DNA of 64,000 nt from Candidatus Acidiflorens stordalenmirensis (lineage in GTDB: Bacteria > Acidobacteriota > Terriglobia > Terriglobales > Acidobacteriaceae), in contig PLIC01000230.1 in assembly GCA_003139995.1 (NCBI GenBank), positions 1-64,000 of the forward strand, written 5' to 3'. Shown one piece after another: positions 4,686-15,280 of the stretch. The translations under genes and the position numbers were made by a program. The notes under the pieces are model-generated. The model was not told the DNA's origin. It was given only the letters and a program-made list of their open reading frames with translations, and ran no database searches. The number at the start of each line of letters is the position of its first letter. Within the stretch, counting starts at the first letter, position 1.

Positions 4686-5285
4686 CTACGGTTCGCTCGT
4701 TTGAGACCCCTTAGCCTCTCGCTTCCGCGCCAATGCACGAAGTCCCAGAAAGCCGAAGAAATACATCACTGCTTGAAATATCGCCACAGCACCCATCTCC
4801 CGATAATAGCCGGTGAATAATCCCGCGACCGGAATGACCAGCATGAAGAAGGACACTACTCGCAGCGTGTTCGGAGTCATCAGGCCACCCTTGCGTTTGC
4901 GCCCTGTCAATAAACGAAAGCACTTTTCGAGTACCCATAGGCAGCCGAGCAACAGGACAAGCCCGACGACGACCGCCAGAACTGGGCTCTGTTTGTTGGG
5001 CACGAGCAACAGCGAGAGCGAAGCAAGTCCGCAGAGCAGCGTGAACAATCCGAGAACCAATCCAACAGGCACTTGGATCCACCGAGGGAGTTCCCTCTCT
5101 TGATGCCGAAACTGCGGCAGTTCATAGCGCGTCTTGAAGTCTGTCAGCGACATCCGCGACCGTAACGCACCTGCGATGTCCCGGAATTCCTGCGAGAAAC
5201 TTTGCAGGTCGGCTGGACGAGGTTCCGACCTAAATAGCGAACGACCTGTGTAGTGGATGAGGTCGTCGTGGATGTACGCTAGCAA
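4686..5285 (-). CDS. Integral membrane hypothetical protein (start uncertain)
   Basis: The C-terminal 150 residues contain four hydrophobic segments (VPVGLVLGLFTLLCGLASLSLLL; VLAVVVGLVLLLGCLWVL; VVSFFMLVIPVAGLF; AVAIFQAVMYFFGFLGL) and end in a charged tail. Before them is a soluble helical stretch (about DLIHYTGRSL to TRYELPQF). The ORF runs back to 5513, but that part is the antisense of the methyltransferase motif I region and is not credible as protein. No ATG exists between 5285 and 5153; a TTG at 5285 or 5297, or the ATG at 5153, are the options. The gene is divergent from, and may overlap, the methyltransferase gene. Family not recognised. Confidence 0.6.
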   Translation of the reverse strand: MLAYIHDDLIHYTGRSLFRSEPRPADLQSFSQEFRDIAGALRSRMSLTDFKTRYELPQFRHQERELPRWIQVPVGLVLGLFTLLCGLASLSLLLVPNKQSPVLAVVVGLVLLLGCLWVLEKCFRLLTGRKRKGGLMTPNTLRVVSFFMLVIPVAGLFTGYYREMGAVAIFQAVMYFFGFLGLRALARKREAKGSQTSEP

Positions 5286-6474
5286 CTCGTCATTCAGGTT
5301 TCCTGCGCGTATGGCTCCAGGAATTGCGCTCGAAGCCCTGGGCGACGGTGAGGGTACTCTTCGAGTTTTGGACCCGATGGCGGGCTCGGGCACAGTGCTC
5401 GCGGTCGCACGTGCAAATGGGCACCGGGCTTTCGGCGTTGACCTAGATCCTCTCGCCGTTCTTTTGGCCGACGTTTGGACACGAACAGTCAATACAGAAC
5501 GAATACGGAGCAAGGCATCTGAGATTTTGCACCGAGCGAAAAAGGCTTTTGATATACTCCCCGCCGGCCAGGCCTATCCTGCCGGCAGTGATGATGAGAC
5601 CCGTGATTTCATCCGGTATTGGTTCGACGATTACGCGCGCCGTCAGTTGGCGGCTCTCTCCGCCGCCATCAGCCGGCTTCATGATGACTCCACTCGTAAA
5701 GTTCTCTGGTGCGCGCTCTCTCGTCTCATCATAACTAAGACGGCAGGGGCATCATTGGCGATGGATTTGTCGCATAGTCGTCCTCATCGACAGTTTACTC
5801 GCGCGCCCGTCAAGCCCTTTAATCGGTTCATTGCGGCGGTGGAGACGATAATAGCCAACTGCCCACAATCGGGTTCGGGGGCAGTTGGACCCGCTACCGT
5901 GGTGAAGCGAGGTGATGCCCGAAGACTGGAAATAGAAAGCGAATCCATCGATCTGGTGCTGACTTCGCCTCCGTACCTCAACGCAATCGATTACATGAGA
6001 TGCAGTAAATTCTCGCTCGTGTGGATGGGGTACAACGTGGATGAGATTCGCCAGATTCGAGGGAAAAGCGTCGGTGCCGAGGTAGCGTCCCAGCAGGCAT
6101 TGGAATCCGATTGGGTGAAATCCGTTATCAAGGAGCTTAACCTCAATCCCGCACTCTCTAGCCGCGACCATGCTCTCTTAGCCAGATACGCGTGGGATAT
6201 GGGACAGGCCCTCGGGGAGGCATCGCGTGTCTTGCGGCGACGCGGACGGGCCGTCTACGTTGTGGGCGACTCCATGAGCAGGGGAACTTTCATACGCAAT
6301 TCGATGATTGTCACTCTCGTTGCGCAACAACATGGGCTCTCGCTCGTCTCGTGGCAATCTAGATCTTTGCCTGCTAACCGCCGGTATCTGCCGCCGCCAA
6401 AGCGAATGGTATCGAGTGACGCGATGGATGCCCGCATGCGCAGGGAAGTTGTTATTGCGTTCAACAAGCCCTAG
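5257..6474 (+). CDS. Site-specific DNA methyltransferase (N4-cytosine or N6-adenine)
   Basis: This is an AdoMet-dependent amino-methyltransferase acting on DNA. Motif I is LDPMAGSGTVL (about 38-48), followed by the acidic strand VDLDP. The catalytic motif IV is LTSPPYLNAIDY (235-246); TSPPY is the form usual for N4-cytosine enzymes. About 190 residues between motifs I and IV could hold target recognition. VYVVGDS near the C-terminus fits a later strand of the fold. FPARMAP before motif I matches the N-terminus of related enzymes, so a start at 5257 or 5272 is preferred to the ATG at 5311. A PLD-fold protein gene lies convergently just downstream. A restriction-modification pairing is possible but not shown. 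Confidence 0.85.
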   Translation: MRSSWMYASNSSFRFPARMAPGIALEALGDGEGTLRVLDPMAGSGTVLAVARANGHRAFGVDLDPLAVLLADVWTRTVNTERIRSKASEILHRAKKAFDILPAGQAYPAGSDDETRDFIRYWFDDYARRQLAALSAAISRLHDDSTRKVLWCALSRLIITKTAGASLAMDLSHSRPHRQFTRAPVKPFNRFIAAVETIIANCPQSGSGAVGPATVVKRGDARRLEIESESIDLVLTSPPYLNAIDYMRCSKFSLVWMGYNVDEIRQIRGKSVGAEVASQQALESDWVKSVIKELNLNPALSSRDHALLARYAWDMGQALGEASRVLRRRGRAVYVVGDSMSRGTFIRNSMIVTLVAQQHGLSLVSWQSRSLPANRRYLPPPKRMVSSDAMDARMRREVVIAFNKP

Positions 6475-6562: not shown

Positions 6563-7723
6563 TCAGTGTTTCAGCAGCCCACGGTCACGAGCCCACACAA
6601 ATATACCGCCATCCAATTCAGCCAGGTTGCGCGCACCGGCTGGATGATGATCCCGAACGACAATCCGGAGCGTCCGAGCCAGTTCCGTATACCGCTGACC
6701 TTCTGTCGTCCCTCGGCGCCACCGCAGCTTGATCGCTGATAACCATTTCTTCACAGGCTTATTCATCATCGGATACTGCTCAGGAAAATAGTGACATAAC
6801 ATCTCGCTCAACCACGCACCGCGCGTTGGGTTTTTGAGTTTAGCCAGGTGGTCAATTTCCTCGCTTACGATCTGATCCAACTGCGGAATGGATGAAGACG
6901 ATCTCCACTCGTCAAGAATCCTGCTAAGGGCACCACAAGACTCTTCCCATTTTGCAGACTTGCCCCTCATCTCAAGGCCCTTGCCCTGCAATCGTGATTT
7001 GTGGTCTGCCCAAAGCTCCCAGAAGACCCGCCAAAACTCGTCACGGCTGATCTTCTTTTGTGAACAGCGACGTGCTGCCACACGTATTTTTTCGCCAATT
7101 TGTCCAAAAGCGGCTTGTCGTTGGCGTTTCTCACGCACCCTGTCCTCGGAATCTGCGCCATGGGGCAAATCGGACGGCTTTATTCTAAGAACACTGATAT
7201 CTGTGCCTTTTCCCCTCCGAAACACGGGCGCCTCTTTGTAGTGATTGTTAATCCAATCCTCACTGACCGAAGTTGCGACGACCGAAGTGAGCCACTTCCG
7301 GAGCTGATCAAATTCATGGGAGCCAATCTGCAAGAGTACGTTCGCTTCGTAGTTAATTGAGAAGCCAGCCTTCGATAAGTTCGATGACCCAATGATGCAG
7401 TAGTATTTCCCGGAGCGGGCCTTCCACGCCACTACTTTGGGGTGGAAATCGACACTATGAGGGACGGCTCCAAAAGAGAAAGAAACGCCACGTTTTGGCA
7501 TCCAACGTAGAACGTTCAGCATGGCCGCCTTCCGTGTCAGCCCGAAGTTAGTACCGACGACAAAAGTCACGCGCTTGCATGCCGAGCCGAGCTTATGGGT
7601 AACATCCCAATCTGTCAGATACGCCGACGCTATATAGAGTTCCTCCGCCTCCTTTAGCGCCTGATTGTATGCATCCCGAAGCTCAGTACTCTGTTTGACA
7701 TTCGGGCTAAGAAGAATTTGCAT
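6563..7723 (-). CDS. PLD-superfamily protein, probable nuclease
   Basis: A 386-aa protein with one phospholipase-D half-site: HPK at 94-96 (VDFHPKVVAW) followed by IIGSSNLSKAG (110-120), the H-x-K plus S-S-N arrangement of the family. PLD-fold nucleases of the BfiI/NgoFVII kind and of several phage-defence operons work as dimers with one such motif per chain, which would fit here. The C-terminal part contains YFPEQYPMMNKPVKKWL, similar to a segment in some restriction-associated proteins (recollection, not tested). The ATG at 7723 with GGGGAG before it is preferred over the TTG at 7738. It converges on the methyltransferase gene. Confidence 0.75.
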   Translation of the reverse strand: MQILLSPNVKQSTELRDAYNQALKEAEELYIASAYLTDWDVTHKLGSACKRVTFVVGTNFGLTRKAAMLNVLRWMPKRGVSFSFGAVPHSVDFHPKVVAWKARSGKYYCIIGSSNLSKAGFSINYEANVLLQIGSHEFDQLRKWLTSVVATSVSEDWINNHYKEAPVFRRGKGTDISVLRIKPSDLPHGADSEDRVREKRQRQAAFGQIGEKIRVAARRCSQKKISRDEFWRVFWELWADHKSRLQGKGLEMRGKSAKWEESCGALSRILDEWRSSSSIPQLDQIVSEEIDHLAKLKNPTRGAWLSEMLCHYFPEQYPMMNKPVKKWLSAIKLRWRRGTTEGQRYTELARTLRIVVRDHHPAGARNLAELDGGIFVWARDRGLLKH

Positions 7724-7734
7724 GACACTCCCCG

Positions 7735-7949
7735 TCAAACCCCAATCCTCTCTACTTCTCTCACACTCACATCATCGTTGCGCCGGTCATGAAGCCCCGT
7801 CCTTTTCGCGTTCGAGTGACCGGCCATCTTCTGCGCGACCTCCACGCGCCCCTCGTTGGTGGGTAATCCGTGATGCCGATGGCGCGGAAGGTCTGGCACC
7901 CTATCGGAACTTCAATGTCCGCATCATACTCTGTGGCGCGAGTAGCGCC
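7735..7949 (-). pseudogene. Tyrosine recombinase (integrase) C-terminal remnant
   Basis: Translating the minus strand gives ADIEVPIGCQTFRAIGITDY and then, after a one-base frameshift, TNEGRVEVAQKMAGHSNAKR, TGLHDRRNDDVSVREVERIG, then V and a stop. This matches the end of XerC/D-like phage integrases (the box-II 'HTFRATGITAYL' and 'MAGHsnakTTgLYDRR' region). The position of the catalytic tyrosine is a histidine (GLHDRR). An in-frame TAG precedes the fragment at 7950-7952. It is therefore dead: no N-terminal part, frameshifted and without the nucleophile. It fills the gap between the PLD gene and abiEii and marks the area as an old integrated element. Confidence 0.7.
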
Positions 7950-7988: not shown

Positions 7989-8888
7989 TCAACCTCTCCC
8001 AAGCTCCGTGCGCAGCCTGTCCCATAGCGCTTGCTCGCGCTGATACTGGTCGCGGGCCAGTGCTCGCTCATCCTCTGTCAGGTCCGCGAGAAATCCGAAC
8101 CCTCTGACGCAATCGGCAGTAATCCTCTCGCGGTCGATGGCGACCGCGCGGTTGAGGAGTTGGCGGAGGTCATCCCAGTCGAAATCCCTGCCGTCCTGGA
8201 ACTTCTGCATCAGCCGCGCCGGATCGAAAGTATCGCGCGCCTGCCAAAGTTTCAGCACCACGAGACGCCGGATGAGCGCCTGGTCGAGCGGCCGCGTGGC
8301 GAACACGCCGAGATCGTAAATGTCGCGCGCCTTGTTCCGCTGAGAGCAGGCGCGGATTTTTTCGGCGAGGATTTCCGGCAGCGCAAGGCAGACAATTTCG
8401 GCTGGCGCGAAAGACAGAAACCTGAAATAACTCTGCTCGATCTGCGCCCGGCGCTCCGTCGGCAGCGTCGGCGTTTCGCGACGGCTGATCTGGAGCTTGA
8501 TTTCGCTGCCACCCTGATTCCAGTCATGAGAGTAGGTCGGATTGACGCCCCAGGACAGACCGTCCTGCGTTTCATAGTAGCTATCGTCGGGAATGCCAAA
8601 TTGGATTCCGTGATAGACCTGCTCGAACGCCGCCATCATGTCGAGGATGATTTCCTCGTGATCGTGCTCCTCGATGCTCGTGAAATCCAGATCGGTCGAA
8701 AATCGTCCATGTCCCCCGATGAACATTTTCCGCAGGCAGGTCCCGCCCTTGAAGGCCAGCCTGTCCAGAATGCCACGCTCGGACAGAAGCTGAAGCAGGA
8801 ACGTCAGCACCACTTCCTTTTCCGCGATCATGATGTCGCGCAGGCCGGATTCGTTGGAGTAACGCTGTACCTGCGCTTGTGTAAGCAT
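7989..8888 (-). CDS. abiEii: AbiEii family toxin, nucleotidyltransferase
   Basis: A 299-aa toxin of a type IV toxin-antitoxin/abortive infection pair. The family motifs are visible: FKGGTCLRK at 46-54 and the nucleotidyltransferase signature RFSTDLDF at 62-69. RDIYDLGVF towards the C-terminus is the fourth conserved motif. AbiEii proteins are DNA polymerase-beta-like nucleotidyltransferases that halt growth on phage infection. The ORF track extends the frame upstream into abiEi, but the ATG at 8888 is one nucleotide after the abiEi stop codon, the normal arrangement of this bicistronic operon. All catalytic motifs are present, so the gene looks intact. Confidence 0.92.
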   Translation of the reverse strand: MLTQAQVQRYSNESGLRDIMIAEKEVVLTFLLQLLSERGILDRLAFKGGTCLRKMFIGGHGRFSTDLDFTSIEEHDHEEIILDMMAAFEQVYHGIQFGIPDDSYYETQDGLSWGVNPTYSHDWNQGGSEIKLQISRRETPTLPTERRAQIEQSYFRFLSFAPAEIVCLALPEILAEKIRACSQRNKARDIYDLGVFATRPLDQALIRRLVVLKLWQARDTFDPARLMQKFQDGRDFDWDDLRQLLNRAVAIDRERITADCVRGFGFLADLTEDERALARDQYQREQALWDRLRTELGRG

Positions 8889-8889
8889 T

Positions 8890-9753
8890 TTACTTTCCCT
8901 TCCTGATCGCCTTGCGCTGCCCGATCCCAGCGCTGCCGTGCAATTCTTCCCGCGGGACATTAACGAACAAATGCCACGTCTTGTCATACCCGATCGCACC
9001 CTGTACTTTCCGCACGGGAGCGAGACCGAGCCACGCTGTCCGGCTGCGGCCCGCCAGCCGCAGCAAGCGCTCACGCACCTCCTGCGAAAGTTCGGCCTTG
9101 ACGTGATCGAGAAGCCAGCCAAACCGCCGCACCAGCGCGCCTGACCCGATGCGTTCGAGATAATCCGCCGCCTTGTTCCAATCAAACCTGCGGCTGGCCG
9201 TCGCCAGGATGATAGCGGCCTCTCCTGCTCCGCCGGCCAACGCCGGGCGGTCGACGCAGTCGATGGCGGTTTTTTCGCGGTCGGAGATCATGACGTTATA
9301 GCCGAGCACATCAACGGACTCGAAACCGAAGAATTTTTTCGGCGCGGGATTGACGATCCGAACCCGTGACTCCCCGACCTGTCGCCCCCGCACATGCACC
9401 GGCGTCACAAGAACAATCACGTTGCGGTGTTGCGTCGTCAGTCCGTAATAGGCGGCGGCCGTGCCGTAGCCGATGTAATAAGGAGTGGCGATATGGCTGG
9501 CGTGAGCCAGGAGATTGCTGTCGCCCAAAGCGTCCGGGCCTTGTTCCGGGGGGATGAGCAGATATTTCCCCCAGCTCGCCCGTTCGAACCAGCCTTTACG
9601 GCGCAGCGACTCGATCACATGGTCAGCGGCCTTGGGGCCGCCGCCGAGAAGCTCGATAATCTCCTCCCGCGTTGCCTCCCGCCGGCCCCTCTCGTTAAGG
9701 GCGAGGACGACCCGGCTTTCCTGCTGTGATAAAGACCGGGTTGCAAGCACCAT
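8890..9753 (-). CDS. abiEi: AbiEi family antitoxin and autorepressor
   Basis: A 287-aa antitoxin with an N-terminal winged helix (about residues 8-75, SLSQQESRVVLALNERGRRE then a recognition segment) and a C-terminal antitoxin domain (IATPYYIGYGTAAAYYGLTT onward). The ATG at 9753 is chosen over the GTG at 9768 because AAGGAG lies about six bases before it. In characterised AbiE systems AbiEi both neutralises AbiEii and represses the operon through inverted repeats. Two such repeats flank the predicted promoter here. The stop and the toxin start are separated by one base, so translation is probably coupled. Confidence 0.93.
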   Translation of the reverse strand: MVLATRSLSQQESRVVLALNERGRREATREEIIELLGGGPKAADHVIESLRRKGWFERASWGKYLLIPPEQGPDALGDSNLLAHASHIATPYYIGYGTAAAYYGLTTQHRNVIVLVTPVHVRGRQVGESRVRIVNPAPKKFFGFESVDVLGYNVMISDREKTAIDCVDRPALAGGAGEAAIILATASRRFDWNKAADYLERIGSGALVRRFGWLLDHVKAELSQEVRERLLRLAGRSRTAWLGLAPVRKVQGAIGYDKTWHLFVNVPREELHGSAGIGQRKAIRKGK

Positions 9754-9767
9754 GTCATTCTCCTTCA

Positions 9768-9794
9768 CAAAACCCCCTTAAACGGGGGGTTTTG
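9768..9794 (-). promoter_or_regulatory. Operator IR1 of the abiE operon
   Basis: CAAAACCCCC (9768-9777), 7-nt spacer, GGGGGTTTTG (9785-9794): perfect 10-bp arms. It sits at the expected start of transcription, just before the abiEi ribosome-binding site. Confidence 0.65.
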
Positions 9795-9800
9795 AGGAAT

Positions 9801-9830
9801 AGAATAGCAGTCTTGTCTCCGTCAAATCAA
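9801..9830 (-). promoter_or_regulatory. Predicted abiE promoter
   Basis: On the minus strand TTGATT (9830-9825), 18-nt spacer, TATTCT (9806-9801). The promoter lies between the two inverted repeats, which would allow AbiEi to block it from both sides. Confidence 0.45.
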
Positions 9831-9842
9831 ACATGTTTATTA

Positions 9843-9873
9843 CACAAAACCCCGTCACAACGGGTGTTTTGTG
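9843..9873 (-). promoter_or_regulatory. Operator IR2 of the abiE operon
   Basis: CACAAAACCCCGT (9843-9855) and ACGGGTGTTTTGTG (9860-9873) are inverted, with one extra T in the second arm. The half-site ACAAAACCCC is shared with IR1. From here to 10202 I see no gene or clear signal. Confidence 0.6.
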
Positions 9874-10202
9874 CATATATAAGGTCAACACCATCGACAA
9901 GTTTCCCGCCTCATCAGCGGCTGTTGCTTTGGCGTGTTTCATAATTCAGGTTCACAATTGAGGGTACGCTTCGCTGTGTCCCTCACGGTGGCAGCGCAAG
10001 ACTCGAGGCCGAGCGGATCGCTACTCCTTTCTCGTAAGGCTCTTGCATCCTCTACTTCAAGCCGGTTTATCCCGGCGCACTGTAATGTGCGATCCACAAT
10101 GGGAAGTCACCAAATGAGACTCCTCCCGACGAAGTAGGAGATCCGAGGCTTGACCAAACCAGCTTGAGTGCGCGCGAAAGCGGAGTACGCGTTGACCGGC
10201 GA

Positions 10203-10973
10203 TTAAAGCATGAGTTCCGCTTCGTTCAGTGAATATGTGCTCCGCTTTTGCCTGTTTGCCACCCATCTTTGCAGAATCGCTCGGGGCTGGTCTTCAAAGA
10301 GGACATTCAGCGCCGCCACTAACGCGTCGGCTTCGCGCCTAGGCTGGTCAAATCCGAGTCTTCGTACAACTTCGTAGGCTTGGTTGGCTTTCTCCACCGA
10401 AAAGGTCCATCCGCATCGACGGAGAGCTTCGATGTGTGCTGCTAGGGCTATCTGATCGCCAGCCATATGCGTCGCGAATAGGTCTGCAGCATTGTGAAAA
10501 TCACCCCTGTCGCGCGCCCGGTTTCCGCGCTGCGGTACCTTCATGCCGGTGATCACGGAACGACTCTTCGCTGTTGGATCAAAACCCTGATTGCGCATTA
10601 TCGGGAAAAAATGAGCATGCTGCATGGCTGCTCTGATCGTTTCGTAAACCTGTCGTAACGAACCCTCATAGGGGGTCATCGCTGACGAGAACGAGAGATT
10701 GTAGATTGGAAATCCCTCTGCAAGCAGTTTAAGGTGGTACAACTCATGAAAGACTGTACTCTCCTCAATTTCGTCTTCGGCTCGAAATTCTATTGTGGGT
10801 GTGTCGTCCTTGCGATCGAGTACCGCGGCTGCACGCTCATGTATGCCTGGTCGCAGGAGGTACAAGACCTTCTTTCCAAACAGAGTTTCAACCTCAGCTT
10901 CTAGAGTGGCGGTACGTGATGTAGACGGAATTTGTAACTCTGTTACAGACAAGTATTCGTCGTGAGGTGTCAT
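10203..10973 (-). CDS. HELYH putative zinc metallopeptidase-like protein (256 aa)
   Basis: The only recognisable signature is STVFHELYHLKLLAEGFP, an HExxH zinc site at 76-80 of the kind seen in gluzincins and ImmA-like proteins. No signal peptide is visible, so it should be cytoplasmic. A third zinc ligand cannot be assigned; candidates are the Glu in YEGSLRQVYE or residues in FHNAADLFATHMAGD. It is the last gene of a three-gene minus-strand operon, starting 35 nt after the trypsin-like protease gene. Two proteases encoded together in a defence-type neighbourhood suggest a proteolytic effector or cascade; that is inference. Confidence 0.65.
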   Translation of the reverse strand: MTPHDEYLSVTELQIPSTSRTATLEAEVETLFGKKVLYLLRPGIHERAAAVLDRKDDTPTIEFRAEDEIEESTVFHELYHLKLLAEGFPIYNLSFSSAMTPYEGSLRQVYETIRAAMQHAHFFPIMRNQGFDPTAKSRSVITGMKVPQRGNRARDRGDFHNAADLFATHMAGDQIALAAHIEALRRCGWTFSVEKANQAYEVVRRLGFDQPRREADALVAALNVLFEDQPRAILQRWVANRQKRSTYSLNEAELML

Positions 10974-11008
10974 TTGTCTTCAGCCGCCAGAGGGAGTTAT
11001 CCCCCGAA

Positions 11009-11881
11009 CTACAACTCCGCCACAGTTTGAACTGCCCATATCCAGTCCGCTAGGTCATCGTGCTGTGGACAACCACGGCTAAGCCAATGGAAGTATGCTG
11101 CCTCTCTCCTCAACGCTTCTAGAAGGAATGCGCGCACGTACTCGATCCGAATGGCGATCAACTGAGAATTGTCCTGGTCCCACCCGAACGCAATTCCCGT
11201 GATTCGACTCTCCTCGGGTGTCCATCGTTGCCCCATCATCTTGCACTCGTAAAAACGAGTGTTCCAGACAGGAGTGCCGCTAAATCCATGTGGATCCGGC
11301 AGATCTGCTCCTGAAGAGCTCATCTTAATTGTGGCCTGCGGATTGTACGACATGCCAAAACACACGGGACCATACGACTGAAATGAATTGTCAGATACCT
11401 GTGATGAGTGGGGCGTGCCATGCAGGCTCAAAGTCTTGAACGTAGGACTAAAATGCGAGCGTTTGTCGCTGTATCCGAGGAAGAACAAAAACTCTTTATC
11501 TTGCGGATCATGCTTCTCGCTCAGCCTCTTCGTAAGAACCGACCTGCACCGGTTCTCCTTCACTGCCCACGGTTCAGCCTCAATCCGCGTTACGGCGAGA
11601 TCTAAAGGCTGGGTACAGGCATGGAAAGCATTTCTCAGTCTTATTGAAGTTGCGGATGTTGAAAGCTGGACAGCCAGCGGAGTGGACGTGGCTGAGCAAG
11701 CAACGTGTGCATTCGTGAGCAAGTAAGTGTGCCCGCGAAGTGCGAGGAAAACACCTGAGCCGAGATGCTCTCCTTCGTTCGGCCCGACCTCGCGTGAGAT
11801 GGCGGTGACATACGGGAAAACGTGCTCACGCATGTCGTTCGTCATTCGCAAAATGACCCTATTAAATTGTGCTTCATCCAT
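11009..11881 (-). CDS. Trypsin-like serine protease domain protein (290 aa)
   Basis: A chymotrypsin-fold protein with a complete apparent triad: His59 in LLTNAHVA, Asp94 in PLDLAV and Ser201 in HGFSGTPVW. The oxyanion motif reads GFSG rather than GDSG. GSGVFLALRGHTYLLTNAHV is the classic first beta-barrel half. There is no signal peptide or PDZ domain, so it is unlike periplasmic HtrA and probably acts in the cytoplasm. It begins 26 nt after the 129-aa gene and precedes the HELYH gene, giving a probable operon. No clear ribosome-binding site was found at the ATG. Confidence 0.75.
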   Translation of the reverse strand: MDEAQFNRVILRMTNDMREHVFPYVTAISREVGPNEGEHLGSGVFLALRGHTYLLTNAHVACSATSTPLAVQLSTSATSIRLRNAFHACTQPLDLAVTRIEAEPWAVKENRCRSVLTKRLSEKHDPQDKEFLFFLGYSDKRSHFSPTFKTLSLHGTPHSSQVSDNSFQSYGPVCFGMSYNPQATIKMSSSGADLPDPHGFSGTPVWNTRFYECKMMGQRWTPEESRITGIAFGWDQDNSQLIAIRIEYVRAFLLEALRREAAYFHWLSRGCPQHDDLADWIWAVQTVAEL

Positions 11882-11906
11882 TCGAAAATACCTTCATCGT
11901 CCGGCC

Positions 11907-12296
11907 CTAGTTTACCTGCGTCGGGTTGAAACCCAAGCTCTGGTCGAACTCGTATAACGGTGCGGCGTCGACGTACCTTTGTTGGTCGGTACCGTTGGCA
12001 TTTCTTTCGATGAATCCGCCGATGTTTCCGAGAAGAAAGTGCTCTCTACCGTCGGGCGTTGAAATGTCAAACAAGTTTGCAATGGGCGATGTCGATGGGT
12101 CGTAGTGCTCGTGATCACCGAAAATGACAGCTCGCGTGAACTCTTGGACCGAAATTGTGTACCGCCCCCGCTCCTCATGCTTGGAAAGAATTTTGGCAGC
12201 ATTGAAGTGCCCGCTTCTTGCCCACGCAGGCACTTTGGGCTTATGTAAAGATTCTCGTATTGTATTCGCTACAGGGAAGAACACGGACAATTTCAA
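11907..12296 (-). CDS. Unrecognised protein, first gene of the protease operon (129 aa)
   Basis: The ORF has balanced coding-like composition from about WARSGHFNAAKILSKHEERG to the end, including VIFGDHEHYDPSTSPIANLF and EHFLLGNIGGFIERNANGTD. The upstream end is uncertain: the ORF begins with TTG at 12296, and an internal GTG is equally possible, with a TACAAT -10-like box between them. No family is recognised. It is 26 nt upstream of, and on the same strand as, the trypsin-like protease gene, so it could be its substrate, sensor or inhibitor. It might also be the tail of a larger truncated gene, since the tRNA remnant lies just upstream. Confidence 0.45.
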   Translation of the reverse strand: MKLSVFFPVANTIRESLHKPKVPAWARSGHFNAAKILSKHEERGRYTISVQEFTRAVIFGDHEHYDPSTSPIANLFDISTPDGREHFLLGNIGGFIERNANGTDQQRYVDAAPLYEFDQSLGFNPTQVN

Positions 12297-12377
12297 CAGG
12301 CTAATTTCGAGGAATCCCGCTTTCCCCCGCGCAGAAAATTCTTTGCAGATTCCTTTGCAGATTATTGGCTACCAACA

Positions 12378-12406
12378 GCAAAGGACCGCTACAAGCGGCC
12401 CTTTGC
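12378..12406 (-). repeat. Hairpin next to the tRNA-Lys remnant
   Basis: GCAAAGGACCGCT (12378-12390), loop ACA, AGCGGCCCTTTGC (12394-12406). With one G-U pair the minus-strand RNA forms a 13-bp stem, but no U tract follows. Nearby, TTTGCAGATT occurs twice in tandem (about 12352-12372). Confidence 0.5.
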
Positions 12407-12445
12407 ATCGTCCTATGCCACTGAAAACACGCGGCGCCGCTTGAT

Positions 12446-12492
12446 ACCAACGGCTTAAAAGGGCGTTGCTCTACCAACTGAGCTACGCGCCC
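12446..12492 (-). pseudogene. tRNA-Lys(TTT) 5' fragment
   Basis: The minus strand reads GGGCGCG (acceptor), TA, a perfect D-arm GCTCAGTTGGTAGAGC, then ACGCC, CTTTTAA (anticodon TTT) and GCCGT, TGGT. From there the sequence leaves the tRNA: no T-arm and no matching acceptor strand follow. The anticodon stem has a C-C mismatch. The molecule is about 47 nt and cannot be a working tRNA. A broken tRNA is the usual scar of an integrative element, and the accessory genes lie on its 3' side. Confidence 0.75.
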
Positions 12493-12660
12493 CACCAATT
12501 TCAATCTAACACATTTTCGGCGCGAATCCGCCCGGCGAGCGCTTCTCAAAAGCCATTGCGCTGGGGATGGAAACGCAGACTCGCTCGACTCGACGCGGCC
12601 TCTATCCCGCGCCCAGCGAGCTGTGACGTCGCCGGAGCAAAAGCGATACACTCTGCTTTC

Positions 12661-13425
12661 ATGCCGCGCTCTGGTTTCTTCTGGGCAAATCTTGTTTTCC
12701 CTGTTTGCGCGATTCTGGTTTGCGCAACTCTGGCCTGCGCGATTCTGTCGCCGACGCTCGTCCACGCCGAGAAAAAGAAACCGTTGCCCGCCGTGCGCTG
12801 GACCGCTGGCGCGCCCGGTTGCACATTCGAACGCACCGATGACGGGCACTACCGCTGGACGATGACCGGGAATGACCTCACCATCACGCTCCTCGTGGAC
12901 TCGCAGGAGCTGACAAAAAGCCGCCGTCGCTTCTATCACGTCCTCGGCGCGTATGTGAGTGTGACATATACCGGTCGGGATAAATTTGAGTTTCCGGCGG
13001 ACGTGCGGATCGACTTCGTTCGTCATCACGACGTTCTTGAGGGCTACATGGATCCCACAGGACTCTCCAACAGATTGCAGAACGACATAGACACGCTGGT
13101 CTTCGAAACCGAGCGCCAGATCAAGAAGAATCCCAAAATCACCGATGAAAAAACGGCTTACTTGAGAGAATACGAAAAGGAAGCGGCCGAGTTCATCGAG
13201 TTCCTGAGCACACAAAGCCTCGATCCTGCCGGGGCGACGCTGACCCCGGGCAATCCTGAAGCCCACGGCTGGGTCTTCTTCGCGACCAGTAGCAAGTGGA
13301 TCGGCCCGTGGAAGGCTCGCGAGGATTTCATTCTCGGCGTTTGGATGAAAGATAAAGTCTGGCAATTCCCATTCTCGCTGCCACCGGCGGAAGGCGACCT
13401 GATCCTGCGGAAGCCGCCCGAGTAA
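12661..13425 (+). CDS. Secreted hypothetical protein (254 aa)
   Basis: The ATG at 12661 gives a typical signal peptide (MPRSGFFWANLVFPVCAILV, Ala-rich, cleavage near VHA-E); the longer ORF upstream runs over the tRNA remnant and is not real. The mature protein has an N-terminal beta-rich part beginning LPAVRWTAGAPGCTFERTDD, a helical middle with alternating charges (TERQIKKNPKITDEKTAYLR) and a C-terminal WVFFATSSKWIGPWKAREDF segment. No domain is recognised. The low-copy hydrophobic content after the signal suggests a soluble periplasmic protein. Confidence 0.8.
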   Translation: MPRSGFFWANLVFPVCAILVCATLACAILSPTLVHAEKKKPLPAVRWTAGAPGCTFERTDDGHYRWTMTGNDLTITLLVDSQELTKSRRRFYHVLGAYVSVTYTGRDKFEFPADVRIDFVRHHDVLEGYMDPTGLSNRLQNDIDTLVFETERQIKKNPKITDEKTAYLREYEKEAAEFIEFLSTQSLDPAGATLTPGNPEAHGWVFFATSSKWIGPWKAREDFILGVWMKDKVWQFPFSLPPAEGDLILRKPPE

Positions 13426-13475
13426 GGGGCGCGAGCGCGCCAGAAAATTGTGTTACAGTTTCGTGCTCATAGTTC

Positions 13476-13655
13476 ATGACCATGGAGATTGATCCGAAAT
13501 CGGCGCCAGAGACCGAAAAACCAGCGGTCGTGTTCTATTGCCCGGTCTGCGCCGCGGAAGTCAGCGATCCGCTGACCTGCGGCGATTGCTCGGCCGTCAT
13601 CTGCCGCCGTTGCGGAACGCCGCTGGAATCTTCGGATGAGCTGGGCATGGGATAA
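13476..13655 (+). CDS. Small zinc-ribbon protein (59 aa), absent from the ORF track
   Basis: ATG at 13476 (or the in-frame ATG at 13482) to TAA at 13653 encodes a 59-residue protein with YCPVC, CGDC and CRRCG. The six cysteines in three pairs are the pattern of a small zinc ribbon. About 17 acidic and polar residues precede it. It lies 50 nt downstream of the secreted protein gene and before a repeat cluster. Such proteins are often adaptors or nucleic-acid binders; here function is unknown. Confidence 0.65.
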   Translation: MTMEIDPKSAPETEKPAVVFYCPVCAAEVSDPLTCGDCSAVICRRCGTPLESSDELGMG

Positions 13656-13659
13656 AGCG

Positions 13660-13805
13660 ATCGTTGGTCGTTCGTCGTTAGTCGTTGGCCGTTCGCGATC
13701 CGTCGTTCGCTGATCGCTGTTCGCCGTTCGTGGTCGCTCGCCAAAGGCGCACGTCTCTGGGTGTTGCGAACAGCCAACGACGAACAGCGCACGACCAACG
13801 ACGCG
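13660..13805. repeat. GTTCGTCGTT-family palindromic repeat, intergenic copy
   Basis: Left arm from TCGTTGGTCGTTCGTCGTTA, right arm ending ACGAACAGCGCACGACCAAC; the arms are about 35 nt and imperfectly complementary, with GTTCGC/GCGAAC words throughout. Related copies lie at 24017-24157 (inside a gene) and 34894-34940. Confidence 0.7.
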
Positions 13806-13849
13806 ATTCCATGACCGACTGAACGGATGACGAACTAACCGACACCTTA

Positions 13850-15280
13850 ATGAACACCGCTCCCGCTTCCGTGGCTCCCGAAGCTGAGACGTCCGGTCAA
13901 AAGCCGAGTCTCGTCCGTGGGCTTAGTTTGCTCGACTCCGTGCTGCTGCTGGTGAGCGGCATCATCGGCTCTTCCATTTTTCTTACCGCCAAAGATATTG
14001 CCGGGCCTTTGCCGAATCCGACGTTGTTTTTTCTGGTGTGGGTCCTCGGTGGAGCGATCTCGCTCTGCGCCTGCGTTGCGTTCGCCGAACTCGGCTCCAT
14101 GTTTCCCGACTCCGGCGGACAATACATTTACCTCCGCGAAGCGTACGGCGACCTGGTTGCGTTTCTCTACGGTTGGATGTTGTTCACGGTCGCGAATGGC
14201 GGCACCATCGCAGCTCTCTCCGTCGCATCGGCGGCCTACATGGGAAACATCATCCCCGGCATTTCGCAGCAGCATGTGATTTTTTCGTTGGCGGGTATTC
14301 CGTTCACGCGCGCGCACGCCGCCGGGCTGGTACTCATCGCCATCCTCACCTGCGTCAACGTTTTCGGATTGCGCTGGGGCGCGCTTCTCCAGAATGTCTC
14401 CACCTGGACGAAGTTCGCCGCCATGGCAGTCTTCGTTGTCCTGGGATTCGCCATCGGCAAGGGGCATTGGTCGAACTTCAGCGCCCAGGCGCCGGGCGGT
14501 TTGAGCATGGGACTAAGTCCAACGCAATTGATCTCCGCTCTCGGCGTCGGCTTGATCGCCGTGTTCTGGGCCTACGACGGCTGGGTCTACATCACGTGGG
14601 TCGCGGGTGAAGTGAAAGAGCCGCGGCGCAATGTGCCGCTGGCCATGGTTTTAGGCGTGCTCGCGGTAGGCGCGATCTATCTCGCGATGAACATGATCTA
14701 CGTTTACGCCCTGCCGCTGCATGAGGTCGCAAAGTACGAAACCATTGCCCACGCCGCCGCGACAAAACTTTTCTCGCCCGCGGCCGCAGTCTGGCTGTCG
14801 GCGATGATTGCGATTTCGTGTTTCAGCGCGGCCGCGACCTGCACCCTGTCGGGCGCGCGCGTCTACCTCGCGATGGCGCAGGACGGCGTCTTCTTTCGCC
14901 GCATGGCCGTCATCCATCCCAAATGGCGCACGCCCGCCTTCAGCCTAATCGGCCAAGGCATCTGGGCCGCGGTGCTCATCATGAGCGGACGCTACGACCA
15001 GCTTTACACCTACGTCATTTTTGGCATGGTGCTCTCGTACACGCTGACCGTCATCGGCCTGTTCGTCTTGCGCTGGAAACGACCCGACGTTCCCCGCCCC
15101 TATCGCTGCACCGGATACCCGTGGCTGCCCGCGATCTACGTTCTGGTCGGCGTCGCTTGGACGCTCAACACCATCATCCAGCGGCCAACTGAAGCCTTCT
15201 GGGGCTCCACGATTGTGTTGATCGGCGTGCCGGGATATTGGTATTGGAAGCGCAAGAGCCGCGCCGAAGTCACCGGCTGA
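13850..15280 (+). CDS. APC-family amino acid permease
   Basis: A 476-aa inner-membrane transporter with about 12 hydrophobic segments. The start of the first helix reads LLLVSGIIGSSIFLTAKDIA, the APC consensus (GxxIGsGIF) with the unwound substrate-binding region. PDSGGQYIYLREAYG and YDGWVYITWVAGEVKEPRRN are further signatures of the LAT/APC branch. It should import or exchange amino acids; the substrate cannot be told. The ATG is the first after the repeat cluster; no strong ribosome-binding site is visible. A second, damaged APC permease gene occurs at 52 kb. Confidence 0.9.
   Translation: MNTAPASVAPEAETSGQKPSLVRGLSLLDSVLLLVSGIIGSSIFLTAKDIAGPLPNPTLFFLVWVLGGAISLCACVAFAELGSMFPDSGGQYIYLREAYGDLVAFLYGWMLFTVANGGTIAALSVASAAYMGNIIPGISQQHVIFSLAGIPFTRAHAAGLVLIAILTCVNVFGLRWGALLQNVSTWTKFAAMAVFVVLGFAIGKGHWSNFSAQAPGGLSMGLSPTQLISALGVGLIAVFWAYDGWVYITWVAGEVKEPRRNVPLAMVLGVLAVGAIYLAMNMIYVYALPLHEVAKYETIAHAAATKLFSPAAAVWLSAMIAISCFSAAATCTLSGARVYLAMAQDGVFFRRMAVIHPKWRTPAFSLIGQGIWAAVLIMSGRYDQLYTYVIFGMVLSYTLTVIGLFVLRWKRPDVPRPYRCTGYPWLPAIYVLVGVAWTLNTIIQRPTEAFWGSTIVLIGVPGYWYWKRKSRAEVTG

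Follow-up and report, generated by a model that had tools for sequence, protein, structure and literature searches.

Organization of the locus

Positions 10203 to 12296 of the window (the whole stretch of 64,000 nucleotides that was analyzed) raised the question of whether they hold a phage-activated proteolytic system of three genes, as a first-pass annotation had proposed for an operon of an unknown small protein, a trypsin-like protease, and an HExxH protein. The three ORFs were indeed found on one strand in the order 129-aa ORF, protease, and HELYH gene. The surroundings were defence-like, as had been claimed, with an AbiEi/AbiEii pair, a DNA methylase, and a nuclease all within 7 kb. The features of the region were as follows.

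5257–6474, plus strand: N6/N4-type DNA methylase
6563–7738, minus strand: PLD/NgoFVII-type nuclease
7989–9768, minus strand: AbiEi/AbiEii type IV toxin-antitoxin pair
10203–10973, minus strand: HELYH (HExxH) protein, 256 aa, ATG start
11009–11881, minus strand: stand-alone intracellular trypsin-like (S1-fold) protease, 290 aa, ATG start
11907–12296, minus strand: 129-aa ORF, TTG start
12446–12492, minus strand: truncated tRNA-Lys(TTT), Rfam tRNA match below the cut-off

The gap between the protease and HELYH genes was 35 nt, as annotated, and that between the 129-aa ORF and the protease gene was 25 nt rather than 26. A promoter scan detected no sigma-70-like site. The methylase and nuclease genes at 5257–6474 and 6563–7738 are convergent and probably constitute a restriction-modification pair.

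The GC3 of the trio was 0.52–0.60 versus 0.74–0.78 for the native genes on the right, which is consistent with acquisition of the trio. Unlike the trio, the AbiE pair was native-like in composition (GC3 of 0.74), indicating that the region is a mosaic. A match to the group II intron D1D4-6 model was located at 9925–10043 on the minus strand, between the AbiE genes and the HELYH gene, with a score of 30.6 bits (E-value of 3.8e-5) that was under the gathering score of 49; as no reverse transcriptase was seen near it, the match is possibly an intron remnant.

The tRNA-Lys of the window retained nucleotides 1–47, and its 3' part was gone. The sequence to the right of 12446 was syntenic across the genus, an intact tRNA-Lys(TTT) occupied the same place in four of the five genus relatives compared, and similarity to the relatives ended inside the tRNA, at 12446 (12449 for the fifth relative). 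The acquired DNA ends on the right at the truncated tRNA-Lys, which the 129-aa ORF adjoins; the break reflects either a rearrangement that accompanied this DNA or a wrong contig join. The other tRNA-Lys of the genome was intact and lay on contig C57 beside a tyrosine-integrase-like gene. C57 was rejected as the far end of the island: its flank there, with a BshC-like gene, belongs to another locus, and the HAD-side flank (the gene after the tRNA in the relatives) was found here on contig C3, where no remnant of the tRNA was present.

The 129-aa ORF is most likely a gene remnant

The 129-aa ORF showed no Pfam, PADLOC, or NCBIfam family match, and neither did the 256-aa HELYH protein; the single NCBIfam hit among the two, with an E-value of 0.12, was meaningless. 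The 129-aa ORF matched phrog_14719 at profile positions 585–685 of 833, and showed 32–34% identity over 83–107 aa with plasmid proteins of Shewanella (813 aa), Paracoccus (805 aa), and Vibrio (a shorter copy of 558 aa). The region matched by the ORF corresponded to residues ~566–672 of 813. An AAA ATPase domain was present in the Shewanella and Vibrio homologues, and the N-terminal part of the longer homologues resembled, by eye only, a restriction-subunit-like nuclease. Whereas the phrog_14719-type AAA ATPases are ~800 aa long, with a long N-terminal part and a P-loop domain, the window was devoid of the N-terminal, P-loop, and C-terminal parts, and a translated comparison found no trace of the ATPase or C-terminal part of the full-length homologues in 9001–14000.

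Sequences like the 129-aa ORF occurred in 3 of 396 genomes of the phylum, the two further relatives lying within ORFs of 817 and 889 aa, and a relative on a viral contig was inside an ORF that ran off the end of that contig. At the locus of the 817-aa relative (L066:127-8433), type I restriction-modification-like genes were followed by the 817-aa AAA ATPase homologous to the remnant. No small stand-alone homologue was found; all homologues found were internal to ATPase proteins of ~800 aa (740–890 aa), either full-length or contig-cut. In addition, no Shine-Dalgarno sequence was seen upstream of the TTG codon; by contrast, the protease gene had GAAGG before its ATG. These observations (homologues only internal, other parts absent, and a TTG start without a Shine-Dalgarno sequence), together with the position against the broken tRNA-Lys at the island edge, suggested that the 129-aa ORF, which keeps the conserved EF and EHFL residues of the parent domain, is most likely what is left of a truncated gene for an ATPase of ~800 aa. 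What had been described as an unknown small protein is thus probably a gene fragment, and readings of the gasdermin or caspase type were set aside because the small ORF was homologous to ATPase proteins instead.

Conservation of the trio was checked in other genomes. When all three proteins were compared with every locus fetched to that point, no locus other than the window contained more than one of the three genes. No HELYH relative with a meaningful E-value was present in the 15 genomes or records with protease relatives. Lack of conservation of the trio as a unit, which the first-pass annotation had named as refuting its proposal, was thus the result within the searched samples, and a genuine three-gene unit is disfavoured. 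No other searched genome had both the protease and the HExxH protein, so that the sign of a partnership is their adjacency in this genome.

The trypsin-like protease and its neighbours

The 290-aa protein matched Trypsin_2 with an E-value of 4.1e-7, exceeding the curated cut-off. The residues of the catalytic triad, H59, D94, and S201, were invariant in 14 of 14 aligned members, in agreement with the full triad noted earlier, and the G-x-S-G-x-x-x-W-x-T motif was likewise invariant in the 14 members. An AF2 model (pLDDT of 76.6, pTM of 0.79) retrieved HtrA1, DegS, uPA, and other trypsin-like proteases from the PDB by Foldseek. The profile, the triad, and the predicted fold place the protein in the trypsin-like (S1/Trypsin_2) class. 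A DUF2934-like C-terminal tail (residues 259–287, E-value of 3.2e-5) was missing in the aligned relatives. The lack of an export signal also held, on inspection only: no hydrophobic signal segment was visible at the N-terminus.

Relatives were 24–32% identical to the protease, and plasmids of Xanthomonas, Rhizobium, Agrobacterium, and Gemmobacter carried some of them. A single-sequence search of genome contigs gave no matches, whereas a profile search of genome contigs gave eight loci; one more relative was on a viral contig. The family was present in 2 of 396 phylum genomes, this one included, and in 3 of 398 genomes of the order to which one Bradyrhizobium member belongs; both counts are lower bounds, because few candidates were scored in each genome. 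The family, made up of stand-alone intracellular trypsin-like proteases, is rare and has no name.

The upstream neighbour on the same strand differed at each homologue's locus. The 11 tabulated homologues outside the window had the following neighbours, and at five of them the gene lay 14–89 nt upstream.

14 nt: HEPN-Toprim
72 nt: DUF4238 (locus L004)
81 nt: ThsB-type TIR
86 nt: DUF3800
89 nt: 264-aa protein without assignment, with a TIR downstream
106 nt: weak DUF2971
132 nt: RepC-like protein
167 nt: protein without assignment
234 nt: XRE-M78
301 nt: GAP1-N1
587 nt: NERD-AAA

Some homologues were orphan-like (L018, L063, and L064) or beside RepC (L014). The tightest protease operon seen was on a Xanthomonas plasmid (L003:4972-8612), with genes for DUF6988, HEPN-Toprim, the trypsin-like protease, and a 275-aa protein without assignment, all no more than 52 nt apart.

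The HELYH protein

The HExxH site reported for the last protein was confirmed as HELYH at residues 76–80 (H76-E77-L-Y-H80) of 256. No relatives were found in plasmids, phages, or viral contigs, and among 396 phylum genomes only its own genome gave a match (1/396). Among 329 family genomes, there was one relative, from the same genus (G398:C148; 31% identity, E-value of 1.6e-20). The HExxH motif was kept in both members (HELYH and HESFH), as were E103 and the HAxFFPxM and DPTA motifs. E103, separated from H80 by 22 residues (a gluzincin-like spacing) and conserved across the two sequences, is a candidate third zinc ligand. The HELYH protein is a putative zinc metallopeptidase of an undescribed family with two known members, as judged from the motifs; a single-sequence AF2 model (pLDDT of 41) was unusable. 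Assignment to ImmA/IrrE (Peptidase_M78) was rejected, as there was no Pfam match and hhalign to one M78 protein aligned the motif only, with a probability of 0.4%.

The contig of the HELYH relative carried an integrase gene, and neither a protease relative nor a relative of the 129-aa ORF was found on it. There, genes for the HExxH relative, DUF4238 (59 nt further), and a DUF5677-like protein followed one another on one strand (L075:9184-13159), preceded by a 440-aa gene without a Pfam match. PADLOC recognized the DUF4238 gene, and the cluster, from the same genus as the window, is a candidate operon for defence. With the protease relative at L004, both protease families were thus found, separately, beside DUF4238. 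This shared adjacency of two sequence-unrelated families, at two loci only and in different bacteria, is a lead.

Proposed function and alternative explanations

The earlier view of intracellular protease genes in defence-like company fits these data, and relatives of both proteases adjoin effector-like genes. Our tentative interpretation is that the locus is an acquired protease pair at the island edge, a probable defence module beside the remnant of an ATPase gene. The most likely function, by analogy with the systems of Tuck et al. (PMC12799240), would be regulated proteolysis that releases a harmful activity. The two protease genes, 35 nt apart, would be co-expressed, and the trypsin-like protease would normally be kept inactive; upon phage infection or another intracellular stress, it would cleave and free the partner encoded beside it, which here would be the HExxH protein and elsewhere an effector-like protein, e.g., HEPN-Toprim, DUF4238, or a TIR protein. 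Target proteins would then be cleaved, and growth of the infected cells would stop. The HELYH protein may be what the trypsin-like protease cleaves, it may act as another protease in a proteolytic cascade, or it may have no link to its neighbour; the sequence does not discriminate among these.

The main rival, a possible reading though a doubtful one, is that unrelated acquired genes came to lie head-to-tail by chance beside the remnant, each having either a function of its own or none at present. The fragmentary 129-aa ORF, the broken tRNA, the nearby group II intron-like remnant, and the mosaic composition implied by the native-like GC3 (0.74) of the flanking AbiE pair would all be expected of such island debris, as would the lack of co-occurrence of the three genes elsewhere in the searched samples. 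However, both protease frames are intact with conserved catalytic motifs, and lie 35 nt apart on the same strand, and both families keep defence-like company elsewhere. It is unlikely that the trypsin-like protease instead serves a mobile element, in maintaining a plasmid or in anti-defence, and not the defence of the host: its relatives occur on plasmids of four genera, one of them beside RepC, and on one viral contig, and several are near toxin-antitoxin or recombinase genes, but HEPN, TIR, DUF4238, and NERD-AAA, which are typical of defence, were more frequent among the neighbours, and plasmids carry defence genes too, so the contexts overlap. A three-gene system, in which the proteases would cleave the 129-aa protein and this protein would work as an adaptor or effector domain, is improbable, because the gap of just 25 nt to the protease gene and the open frame with its parent-domain residues (EF and EHFL) are set against homologues that were all internal to ATPase proteins of 740–890 aa, truncation at both ends relative to them, and a TTG start without a Shine-Dalgarno sequence.

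Returning to the protease pair, a broader reading would be a modular class of defence, in which a stand-alone trypsin-like protease is combined with interchangeable effectors (HEPN-Toprim, DUF4238, TIR, and DUF3800), an unrelated HExxH family can hold the same seat by DUF4238, and the window is where both kinds meet. We consider this generalization speculative and rather unlikely. Protease-activated effectors are a newly recognized theme of bacterial immunity, so far mainly of fusions and MBL nucleases, and a family of stand-alone trypsin-like proteases whose effector-like neighbours vary would, if real, extend it. A second HExxH family beside DUF4238 would, if real, hint at how DUF4238 might be regulated. 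The locus is also a reminder that a short "unknown" ORF at the edge of an island may be a fragment of a gene.

Comparison with known systems

No PADLOC model fitted the locus, consistent with the earlier failure to match it to a named system. Rousset et al. (2022; PMC9122126) reported that a single DUF4238 protein confers strong resistance to T7 in E. coli. Relatives of both proteases directly adjoin DUF4238 (L004 and L075), but no DUF4238 gene is adjacent in the window. Kaur et al. (2020; PMC7159879) described peptidase-containing NTP-dependent conflict systems with trypsin-like and occasional metallopeptidase components that are thought to form proteolytic cascades. The window shares the two kinds of component, but there was no vWA/MoxR/VMAP or Trypco partner among the neighbours scanned. 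Tuck et al. (2025; PMC12799240) described MBL pro-nuclease/trypsin-like protease pairs of Hachiman, AVAST, Lamassu, and DRT; in Hachiman and AVAST, the protease activates a gated nuclease. Like these pairs, the window combines an intracellular trypsin-like protease with a neighbouring gene for a putative effector, in surroundings suggestive of defence. However, their protease is fused to the N-terminus of a defence core protein (HamA, Avs1, or LmuA) and their partner is an upstream MBL-fold nuclease, whereas the protease of the window is stand-alone, with only the DUF2934-like tail, and no MBL match was found among the flanking proteins scanned; the locus is therefore not a member of that group. 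By analogy, the proposed module would act like the protease-activated pro-effectors while standing outside any named system.
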